Shown in pieces: positions 21,867 to 24,559 of a stretch of 64,000 nt of DNA. The DNA comes from Clostridia bacterium (GTDB taxonomy: Bacteria > Bacillota > Clostridia > Oscillospirales > Acutalibacteraceae): contig JAFQCT010000007.1 of NCBI GenBank assembly GCA_017399405.1, positions 28,957 to 92,956 of the forward strand, written 5' to 3'. Positions within the stretch are counted from its first letter, which is position 1, and the number at the start of each line of letters is the position of its first letter. The notes beneath the pieces are model-generated. The model searched no databases and was not told where the DNA came from. It saw only the letters and a list, made by a program, of their open reading frames with translations. Position numbers and translations under genes: made by a program.

Positions 21867-21895
21867 TTGATTTTTATGAAAAATAGTGTTAAACT
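21867..21895 (+). promoter_or_regulatory. Promoter of a gene-less transcription unit
   Basis: TTGATT (21867-21872), 17 bases, TAAACT (21890-21895). Predicted start is near G21902, exactly where the long closing stem of the downstream RNA begins. Confidence 0.6.
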
Positions 21896-21901
21896 ACAAA
21901 T

Positions 21902-22076
21902 GCCAAACAAATTTAATTTTTTAGCTCACTATTAGTATGTGTATTTTTATTGTTTTTGGTAAAAATACAGATGCTCTATTTGCATATACTTTTGGTGAGT
22001 AATGTAGATTTGTTTGGCGACAGTTGGAGCTATGTATTTTTCGTGCGTTGGCTTTGGCTGGCGCACTTTTTATTTT
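21902..22076 (+). ncRNA. Candidate structured non-coding RNA, about 175 nt
   Basis: A self-contained unit with promoter, fold and terminator but no reading frame. Seen pairings: P1 GCCAAACAAAT (21902-21912) with ATTTGTTTGGC (22008-22018), 11 perfect pairs. Inside are CTCAC/GTGAG (21925-21929 with 21995-21999), AGTAT/ATACT (21934-21938 with 21986-21990) and GTATTTTT/AAAAATAC (21941-21948 with 21961-21968). A competing helix TAGCTC/GAGCTA (21922-21927 with 22027-22032) shares bases with CTCAC, so two folds are possible. Ends in a ten-pair terminator. Whether it is a trans-acting RNA or an orphaned riboswitch is unknown; I match it to no family. Confidence 0.6.
22043..22076 (+). terminator. Terminator of the candidate RNA
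   Basis: GTGCGTTGGC / GCTGGCGCAC (22043-22066; three G-U) with loop TTTG, then TTTTTATTTT. It is followed by a ribosome site (GTGGAGG) and ATG AAT TAA, a start with a two-codon frame. Confidence 0.75.
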
Positions 22077-22139
22077 GTGGAGGAAACTATTATGAATTAA
22101 TCCGCATAATTTCAAGTTAATAAACTACAATATTTTTTC

Positions 22140-22168
22140 TTGCAACATATTATTTAATATGATATTAT
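22140..22168 (+). promoter_or_regulatory. Promoter of the BspA-like gene
   Basis: TTGCAA (22140-22145), 17 bases, TATTAT (22163-22168), downstream of the RNA unit, so the two are transcribed separately. Confidence 0.6.
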
Positions 22169-22195
22169 AAAATTAGAAAATGGGAGATGAGAGTT

Positions 22196-24559
22196 ATGCG
22201 CAAAATACATAAGTTTTTATCAATTATCCTTGCAGTTTTTATAGTAATATCCATCATTCCAATCACAGCAAGTGCAGCTACATATACAGGCACTTGCGGT
22301 GATAATTTAACTTGGACTTATAATACATCATCATACACTTTAACTATTTCAGGCATAGGAGCCATATATGATTATGAATATAATAATCGTCCGTGGGAAA
22401 GCTATGAAGATAAAATTAAAAATGTTGTTGTTGAAGATGGTGTAACATCTATTGGTAACTATTCTTTTTATGGTTGCGGGTATCTTGTTAACGTTACATT
22501 ACCTGACGGTGTAACAAAGATTGGTCATCGTGCATTTTACAGTTGCAATTCCCTTGCAAATATAACAATTCCTGACACAGTAACCACTATTGGACAATCT
22601 GCATTTTATTATTGCTATTCACTTAAAAGTATCAACATCCCTTATGGGATAACAACCATTAGTGCGGGAGCGTTTAATTTATGTGAAAAACTTATAGAAA
22701 TAACAATTCCTGACAGCGTGACAGAGATTGGAGAATATGCATTTGCTGGATGTGATGGTCTTACGGAAATAATAATTCCCGATAGTGTAACAACAATTGG
22801 GAAACATGCATTTTCTGGATGTTATGGTTTAATAAGTGTAACAATAGGTAATGGTGTAACAACGATTGGAAATAGTGCATTTAATAGTTGTAAGGGTCTT
22901 ACAACTATAACAATCCCCAAAAATGTAGCAACAATTGAAAGTCGTGCATTTGCAAATTGTGAAAAGCTTACAGGCATAATGGTTGATAATGATAATCAAT
23001 ACTTTGTAAATGATGAATATGGAGTATTGTTTAATCAAGACAAAACAACTCTTATGCAGTATCCAATAGGACATACAAGAACAAGTTATACAATTCCTGA
23101 TGGAGTAACAACAATTGAAGAAATGGCATTCTATAATTGTTTGGCATTAACAAATGTCACTTTTCCAAATGGTGTTGAAACAATTAATTATTGTGCTTTT
23201 GATGGTTGTGCTAATATTACAAGCATAATTCTTCCTGATGGTGTAACAACAATCGACAGTTGGGCTTTTGGTTCTTGTAGTAGCCTAGAAAGTATAACAA
23301 TTCCTGCAAGTGTAACAAGAATTAGTAGCAATGCAATTTCATATAAGACAACCATTATTTATTATGGCGGTACCGCAAATCAATGGAAACAGTTATTGGC
23401 TAATAATCCAGCATCAGAGGGTGGTTATTTAGAAGAAAATATAGTTTTTTGTGCAGACCAAATGCTTCTTCCTTCAGGTGCTTGTGGTGATAATCTTACA
23501 TGGTCTTACAATATGCTTACTGGAGTTTTGAGAATTTCAGGTGCAGGGGATATGTATAATTATGGAACTCACCATCTTTCCCTTACAAATACTCCATGGT
23601 CAACTTTCTTAAATGATATTAAGGAAGTTGTTATTGAAGATGGTGTAACAAGCATTGGTACTTATGCATTTTATGGATGTTCTAATCTTTCTGATGTAAA
23701 AATTGGTGACGGAGTAACAACGATTGGTGAGCGTGCATTTGAATATTGTAGAGGTCTTAATACTGTAACAATTGGCAATGGTGTAACAACAATTGAAAAG
23801 TATGCATTTAAAGAGTGTACAGGTCTTACAAGTGTTATAATACCTGTCAGTGTTACAGATATGGATAGTGGAGCCTTTTATAAGTGTTCAGGCATAACTG
23901 ATGTTTATTATGAAGGCACGGAAGAACAATGGATAGATAATATTATTCTTTTTTCTCCTGATAATGCTTTAATAGGTGTTAAAATACCTTTTAATAAGGA
24001 TGTTACAATTCATTTTAATTATCACATACATAAATATAATTCAGTAGTATCCGAGCCAACCTGTACAGAGCAAGGTTATACAACATATACCTGTGAATGT
24101 GGTGAAAGTTATATTGACAATTATGTTGATGCTACAGGCCATAGCTATGATTCTGTAGTAACACCACCAACATGCACCGAAAAAGGTTATACAACATACA
24201 CTTGCGAATGTGGTGATAGTTATGTTGATAATTATGTTGATGCTACAGGGCATACTTACGGCGAATGGACTGTAACAAAAGATGCAACCGTTGACACCGA
24301 AGGTGAAATGGAAAGAGTATGTCCTTGTGGTGAAAAAGAGTATAATGCAATCGAGAAACTCTCTGCAGTTGACGACAAGGAAGAAGTAGAAGATACTAAC
24401 AAAGAAGATGCAAAAAATCCCGAAATCCCCAACACGGATTATAGTATAAAGTCATCTGCACACATATTATTTGTGGTTTTTATGTTTGTTTGTGTAGTTC
24501 TTTGTAAAATTCCATTCCGCAAGAAAATATATAATTTTACATCAGGGGTAGTAAAATAG
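22196..24559 (+). CDS. BspA-like leucine-rich-repeat surface protein
   Basis: 787-residue exported protein with a signal peptide (residues 1-27, ending ITASA). The body is two blocks, each opened by CGDNLTW...L.ISG.G and followed by BspA-type LRR_5 repeats (IP-x-x-V-x-x-IG-x-x-AF-x-x-C). Block one spans about residues 30-420, block two about 430-590. Then come two 37-residue CTExGYTTYTCECG repeats, an acidic linker, and a C-terminal membrane helix with basic tail but no LPXTG. Such proteins bind host or microbial partners in gut and oral species. The start at 22196 is preferred to ATG 22187, which touches the GGGAG ribosome site. Confidence 0.9.
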   Translation: MRKIHKFLSIILAVFIVISIIPITASAATYTGTCGDNLTWTYNTSSYTLTISGIGAIYDYEYNNRPWESYEDKIKNVVVEDGVTSIGNYSFYGCGYLVNVTLPDGVTKIGHRAFYSCNSLANITIPDTVTTIGQSAFYYCYSLKSINIPYGITTISAGAFNLCEKLIEITIPDSVTEIGEYAFAGCDGLTEIIIPDSVTTIGKHAFSGCYGLISVTIGNGVTTIGNSAFNSCKGLTTITIPKNVATIESRAFANCEKLTGIMVDNDNQYFVNDEYGVLFNQDKTTLMQYPIGHTRTSYTIPDGVTTIEEMAFYNCLALTNVTFPNGVETINYCAFDGCANITSIILPDGVTTIDSWAFGSCSSLESITIPASVTRISSNAISYKTTIIYYGGTANQWKQLLANNPASEGGYLEENIVFCADQMLLPSGACGDNLTWSYNMLTGVLRISGAGDMYNYGTHHLSLTNTPWSTFLNDIKEVVIEDGVTSIGTYAFYGCSNLSDVKIGDGVTTIGERAFEYCRGLNTVTIGNGVTTIEKYAFKECTGLTSVIIPVSVTDMDSGAFYKCSGITDVYYEGTEEQWIDNIILFSPDNALIGVKIPFNKDVTIHFNYHIHKYNSVVSEPTCTEQGYTTYTCECGESYIDNYVDATGHSYDSVVTPPTCTEKGYTTYTCECGDSYVDNYVDATGHTYGEWTVTKDATVDTEGEMERVCPCGEKEYNAIEKLSAVDDKEEVEDTNKEDAKNPEIPNTDYSIKSSAHILFVVFMFVCVVLCKIPFRKKIYNFTSGVVK
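24056..24277 (+). repeat. Two tandem 111-bp repeats in the BspA-like gene
   Basis: Copies 24056-24166 and 24167-24277 encode 37 residues each, with CTE, YTCECG and VDATGH conserved; clearly similar at the DNA level too, which suggests recent duplication. Confidence 0.75.

Follow-up and report, generated by a model that had tools for sequence, protein, structure and literature searches.

A multicopy structured RNA of Clostridia with competing helices, probably a new family of cis-acting transcription attenuators

Terminator riboswitches are leader RNAs that lie between a promoter and a gene and combine a closing helix and a pseudoknot with mutually exclusive antiterminator and terminator structures. 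In trp leaders, pairing of strands 1:2 and 3:4 stands against pairing of strands 2:3, in an arrangement that includes an antiterminator. Surface proteins are known targets of cyclic di-GMP riboswitches. Other leaders, such as that of L10/rplJL (PMC4538822), are controlled by proteins. For the gut and other human microbiomes, PMC8040213 reports 3161 candidate structured RNAs, counted after members of Rfam families had been removed. The element described here is one copy of a large structured-RNA family outside the Rfam catalogue. Comparison of its copies suggests, with a probability that we put at roughly 78%, that it represents a new family of cis-acting transcription attenuators with their own promoter.

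The window, a stretch of 64,000 nt from a Clostridia bacterium, carries the element on its plus strand. A sigma-70-like promoter, TTGATT-17-TAAACT, is readable in the sequence at 21867-21895 (-35 at 21867-21872, -10 at 21890-21895), as the first-pass annotation had proposed, and is absent from the list of a generic promoter scan. From the predicted +1 at G21902 runs the 5' arm of a closing helix, P1 (21902-21915), which is complementary to the 3' arm (22005-22018) at 13 of 14 positions with one mismatch, so that the closing stem noted earlier stands and extends to 14 positions. P1 encloses a variable inner domain (21924-22000) with helix P2 (about 21924-21941 with 21983-22000), which was placed from the fold and from a family-wide test. 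Within this domain lie strand A (GTATTTTTA, 21941-21949), assigned by its cognate test as the upstream partner of B, and strand B (TAAAAATACAGATGCTCT, 21960-21977), an A-run followed by a GCTC-like end that forms the conserved part of the domain in the homologue alignment. Strand C (GGAGCTATGTATTTTT, 22026-22041) is predicted by RNAalifold and by cognate tests to pair with B, as a pseudoknot across P1, or with strand D, as an antiterminator. Strands D and E make up the intrinsic terminator hairpin (22043-22066, with D at 22043-22057 carrying its 5' half), which was recovered by a terminator scan and by the D:E cognate test and is followed by a U-tract (22067-22076), in agreement with the GC-rich terminator first described. 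The folding energy of the 175-nt RNA (21902-22076) is -61.3 kcal/mol, whereas 200 dinucleotide shuffles average -33.5 (sd 3.3; z -8.4) and none of them folded as well, which bears out the strong fold with nested helices seen on first reading. In the C-D-E part of the window copy taken alone, the antiterminator fold (-17.2 kcal/mol) and the terminator alone (-16.0 kcal/mol) are near balance.

No gene lies directly behind the window copy, as had been noticed at the outset: a ribosome-binding site (GGAGG) leads only to the two-codon ORF ATG AAT TAA (together 22079-22100, the ORF at 22092-22100). A promoter-like site, TTGCAA-17-TATTAT (22140-22168; 9 of 12 matches, a level at which about 3 sites per 600 bases are expected by chance), precedes a gene for a BspA-like leucine-rich-repeat protein (22187-24559; Pfam LRR_5, E 5.1e-123). 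The window's own genome holds this one copy. Three other loci (L067, L039 and L110) share this order, with two to five codons in the ORF that separates the RNA from the promoter-like site of the BspA-like gene; their promoter-like sites also have 9 of 12 matches and a spacer of 17. A BspA-like gene related to the window's was found in 6 of 10 relatives' loci checked. The earlier suggestion that a downstream gene had been lost is plausible for the window copy, but the same arrangement recurs in several genomes. In a tandem pair of copies (L069:1501-1980), a short ORF lies behind the first copy; its initial five codons match the start of the second copy's gene, and it looks like that start broken off, which suggests a route by which orphan starts of this kind can arise. 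With the usual adjoining gene missing, the window copy would yield either a short RNA or a transcript that reads through into the BspA-like gene, for which a promoter of its own seems to be present.

The covariance models of Rfam 15 gave no match over the window element at gathering scores, and at E values up to 5 the sole match was a chance one (E 0.72) on the opposite strand, upstream of the element. On 20 further loci, the gathering-level matches were tRNAs outside the element only; sub-gathering overlaps occurred in a few single loci with a different family each, such as GcvB in L085 (22.3 bits versus 42). No T-box model matched in the window or in these 20 loci. A known Rfam family as the identity of the element is ruled out by the absent matches in the window and the 20 loci, in line with the first impression that it corresponds to no known riboswitch or small RNA. 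A literature search of titles and abstract openings, with subscription journals mostly outside its reach, returned no description of such an element; the family may be among the candidates of PMC8040213, whose text passages, on which the comparison was made, contain none like it.

When the window's own genome and 59 relatives were searched at the DNA level, 43 of the 60 had a match at E up to 0.1; the strong matches, down to E 1.5e-66, span the element, and the weak ones resemble chance AT-rich matches. A covariance model, R1, was built from 35 aligned copies (alignment A1) with only P1 and the terminator as helices. At E up to 1e-3 it matched 104 of 295 genomes in a draw from the order, and at E up to 1e-4 it matched 96 of 391 in a draw from the class; each count includes the window's own genome, and the two draws share a few genomes. 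Among 398 genomes drawn from the phylum, R1 matched only the window's own; the other 14 in-class genomes of this draw gave no match, and about 383 of the 398, as inferred from the order of the listing, lie outside the class and gave none, so that R1 appears specific. Copy numbers in eight genomes, hand-picked mostly for high counts, were 27, 27, 10, 10, 9, 7, 1 and 1. A pattern scan of named genomes returned at least 119 stretches; among the 80 titles listed, all were metagenome-assembled or uncultured and all but one (labelled Bacteroides) had clostridial names, and many named a gut or rumen site.

Some copies stand in tandem, tens to about 150 bases apart (L069:1501-1980, L109:2159-2700, L222:1501-1884, L233:1231-1670 and L256:146-549), and as read have promoter-like sequences of their own. 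Several copies (C3, C9, C19 and C28 of G181; C9 and C92 of G559) start less than 100 bases from a contig end, as if repeated sequence had broken the assembly. Phages or plasmids as the main home of the family were rejected, since viral material yielded only two viral-contig pattern matches (L218, L219) and one partial match, over 47% of the query, to the phage-labelled unannotated record MT835845.1 (L308), and plasmid records gave no match to the element.

The comparative set was assembled in two stages. From a first set of 48 loci, three without P1 by rule and one misplaced (L021) were removed; A1 comprises 35 of the remaining 44 copies, the nine long (type II) copies being left out. R1 was run on 200 sources, omitting L199-L217 (19 of the 119 pattern loci) and L245-L247, and gave 217 matches. 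The parser excluded 29 of these, namely 11 weak opposite-strand matches and 18 sense-strand ones, some cut by the locus end and others failing the P1 rule; from the 188 parsed copies, four near-duplicates and two misparsed rows were removed to leave 182 members. The length of the stretch cut out inside P1 divides these into type I (<108 nt, n = 102, including the window copy) and type II (longer, n = 80).

A -10-like hexamer was found near P1 in 176 of the 178 copies tested, at the same distance in 142. Of the spacers tried (15 to 18), 17 gave the best -35-like hexamer in 149 of 176 copies. The fixed distance in these 142 copies places the beginning of P1 at the expected +1. The view of the element as a self-contained transcription unit is supported. 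The paired share of P1 is a selected quantity because the parser demanded a good P1, but the variety of its pair types is still informative: among the 182 members, position 3 is CG in 133, GC in 41, TA in 6 and AT in 2, and position 5 is AT in 134, CG in 46, GT in 1 and TG in 1. The arms occur as GCCAAAC/GTTTGGC, GCGACAC/GTGTCGC, GCTACAC/GTGTAGC, GCAACAC/GTGTTGC and other variants. Judged from these sequences, P1 is maintained by compensatory change. We also asked whether strands pair with better energy when both come from one copy than when they are swapped between copies, using permutation nulls that ignore kinship (type I, n = 102; type II, n = 80). Cognate arms were favoured in P1 (z -24.4 in type I, -22.2 in type II), and a family test of P2 gave z -35.1 and -21.9.

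Beyond these nested helices, strand B is complementary both to A upstream and to C after P1, and C is also complementary to D. RNAalifold, run on A1 (35 homologues) with no structure given, picks B:C and D:E. Its column pair 88-168 comprises GC 22, AU 10 and GU 3 with none broken, whereas in column pair 94-163, which belongs to B:C, 8 of the 35 copies fail to pair; P1 is left undrawn because the alignment breaks its 5' arm. The cognate test supports all four pairings. For B:C, tests that use strand B alone are biased towards cognate pairs, B having been chosen as the best partner of C; a test of the whole loop against C, which is free of this bias, gave z -11.1 in type I and -7.5 in type II. 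The corresponding values were -13.3 and -3.1 for A:B, -5.1 and -5.4 for C:D, and -17.9 and -14.0 for D:E. Control pairings of C with the P1 3' arm (-1.4 and +0.5) and of B with D (0.0 and +0.1) gave no such signal.

In a stricter test on 136 copies, swaps were made between nearest relatives. Significance was retained in both types by P1, P2, B:C and D:E, B:C in type II at p 0.043 only and with B chosen to fit C; A:B was significant in type I only (type II, p 0.68), and C:D in type II only (type I, p 0.17). When the C-D-E part was folded alone, 133 of 182 copies formed the antiterminator, with 8 nt or more of C in pairs with D/E, and the antiterminator fold was not preferred in the other 49. 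By comparison, the family thus combines an intrinsic terminator with a mutually exclusive antiterminator, as expected of a transcription attenuator (C:D being significant under nearest-relative swaps in type II only).

The first-pass annotation had read a switching RNA from CTC at 21925-21927 pairing either with GAG at 21997-21999 or with GAG at 22027-22029. Its idea of competing strands is supported comparatively, but the alternative that it named is not. The CTC sits in the variable helix P2, and the P2 5' side against C gave z -0.7 in type I (243 of 1000 permutations as good) and -2.2 in type II (19 of 1000), with p 0.22 in both types under nearest-relative swaps. In the family, the partner of the GAG at 22027-22029 is either CTC 21974-21976 of strand B or the CTT in strand D.

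The pairings themselves are supported by sequence comparison, and from them we infer an effect on termination, its direction and a signal. RNA polymerase would start at the foot of P1. Strand B, inside P1, could pair either with A, upstream and also inside P1, or with C, just past P1, as a pseudoknot. With B on A, C would be free to pair with D as the antiterminator, and transcription would run on into the gene; with B on C, D would be free to pair with E as the terminator, and transcription would end after about 175 nt. The choice of B would be tipped by an influence on the P1/P2 domain, which a small molecule or a protein might exert.

The element might alternatively be a mobile repeat, such as a MITE-like inverted repeat or a recombination site, with the hairpin as a feature of the DNA. 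It is multicopy and patchy, some copies lie at contig ends, and gpmI had no match in the 10 relatives' loci checked (a few kb each), which means either that the site differs or that these short loci end before gpmI. The uniform distance between promoter and P1, the occurrence of G-U pairs in P1, the covariation of terminator and antiterminator and the gene directly behind the element count against such a repeat, which we consider very unlikely.

A ribosome-site-like sequence with an ORF of at least 40 codons follows within 320 nt in 170 of the 188 parsed copies, and in these 170 its median distance from the end of the model match is 23 nt. It lies within 100 nt in 146 of the 188 and within 30 nt in 106; random positions in the same loci had one within 100 nt in 428 of 1880 cases and within 30 nt in 173, and the antisense direction from the element gave 15 of 188 and 1 of 188. 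In the family the element is thus mostly a leader, and the term "gene-less" fits the window copy and not the nature of the element. These counts also bear on a stand-alone small RNA, a terminated 175-nt transcript that acts in trans with downstream genes being incidental. Such an RNA would have its own promoter and terminator, as observed, and would account for the copies without a directly adjoining gene, the window's included, and for tandem copies with promoter-like sequences of their own. The excess of adjoining ORFs over random positions within 100 nt argues against it, as does the antiterminator favoured between cognate strands, which a plain small RNA would not need; this explanation appears improbable to us.

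A Pfam scan covered 131 of the 170 downstream proteins, long ones being cut to their first 400 residues. BspA-type leucine-rich repeats were the commonest match (22 of 131), a zinc ribbon was found in 9, and CHAP, collagen-like, SHOCT, SLH and dockerin domains in a few each; the scanned genes point to no single pathway. A crude rule, applied without a control, assigned a signal-like N-terminus to 106 of the 170 proteins. By eye, in 20 regions from each of two 27-copy genomes, many copies precede BspA-like genes. A second recurring group consists of small proteins with a zinc-ribbon-like C-terminus, putatively AbrB-like in view of weak MazE and MraZ matches of one member; they could be regulators under the switch. 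Paralogues of this group in one genus (G593, G559 and G432) were seen at L255, L263, L264, L265, L267, L275, L282, L285, L287, L289 and L295. Another recurring small protein, starting with (M/V)PDYK, was seen after copies in L112 (5027-5212), L115, L187 and L069.

Given the surface-protein genes, which match the targets of cyclic di-GMP riboswitches, the element could be a riboswitch of this kind. We counted GGDEF and LRR_5 matches in 14 hand-picked genomes. Seven multi-copy genomes had 13 to 108 LRR_5 and 0 to 9 GGDEF matches, five genomes without a copy found had 0 to 11 and 0 to 17, and two one-copy genomes had 37 and 11 LRR_5 with 2 and 14 GGDEF. In G593 (27 copies, assembly 94% complete), no GGDEF match was found at E up to 1e-5; G559, the other 27-copy genome, has 2, and the range among the other multi-copy carriers is 1 to 9. 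G060 and G128, in which no copy was found, have 17 and 14. The trend is loose, as G098, without a copy, has 0 and the carriers G284 and G079 have 9 each. Moreover, no Rfam model of either cyclic di-GMP riboswitch family matched in the window or the 20 further loci. On the GGDEF counts, with their loose trend, and the absent model match, cyclic di-GMP looks unlikely as the signal, and we give this identity hardly any weight.

Within the attenuator reading, the unpaired bases bear on what might set the fold. Close to the P1 5' arm, AATA is present in 77 of 102 type I and 66 of 80 type II copies; the bases that directly follow P1 and those just ahead of the A-run of B also stand out, all as raw counts against an AT-rich background. 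This conservation appears modest and weak for a ligand pocket, and would speak slightly against a classical aptamer. The element could be a riboswitch, a leader under protein control or a kinetic switch that needs no ligand. If an RNA-binding protein set the fold, the strand logic would be the same, as a sub-case of the attenuator; the modest conservation of unpaired bases suits this, and a single shared protein could serve many copies, so that protein control is a possibility that we take seriously without holding it probable. We think it rather unlikely that the switch is a self-contained, ligand-free coin-toss, in which chance decides, while the RNA is emerging from the polymerase, whether B pairs with A or with C. 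Were it so, the genes behind up to 27 copies per genome, many of them for surface proteins, would be switched on independently in a fraction of cells, giving a diversity like that of phase variation at the level of RNA folding, without DNA rearrangement.

The element is present in about a third of the sampled genomes of the order and a quarter of those of the class, sometimes with 27 copies per genome, and in uncultured Clostridia of the gut and rumen it often lies ahead of genes that encode surface-type proteins. Its signal would therefore tell what triggers a change of surface in these bacteria. As the strands are defined base by base, the proposed mechanism is open to testing by in vitro transcription.

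Compared with known systems, the element resembles the class of terminator riboswitches in being a leader RNA with a closing helix, a pseudoknot and an exclusive antiterminator and terminator, a promoter upstream and a gene downstream. It differs from that class in having neither an Rfam match nor a ligand assignment, in the modest conservation of its unpaired bases, and in targets that are diverse and often envelope-like rather than belonging to one pathway. With trp leaders it shares the four-strand logic; unlike in trp leaders, P1 encloses A and B but not C, and, read by eye, P1 at the predicted +1 leaves no room upstream for a ribosome site, so that a leader peptide seems unlikely. Protein-controlled leaders such as that of L10/rplJL (PMC4538822) are also among the closest known systems.
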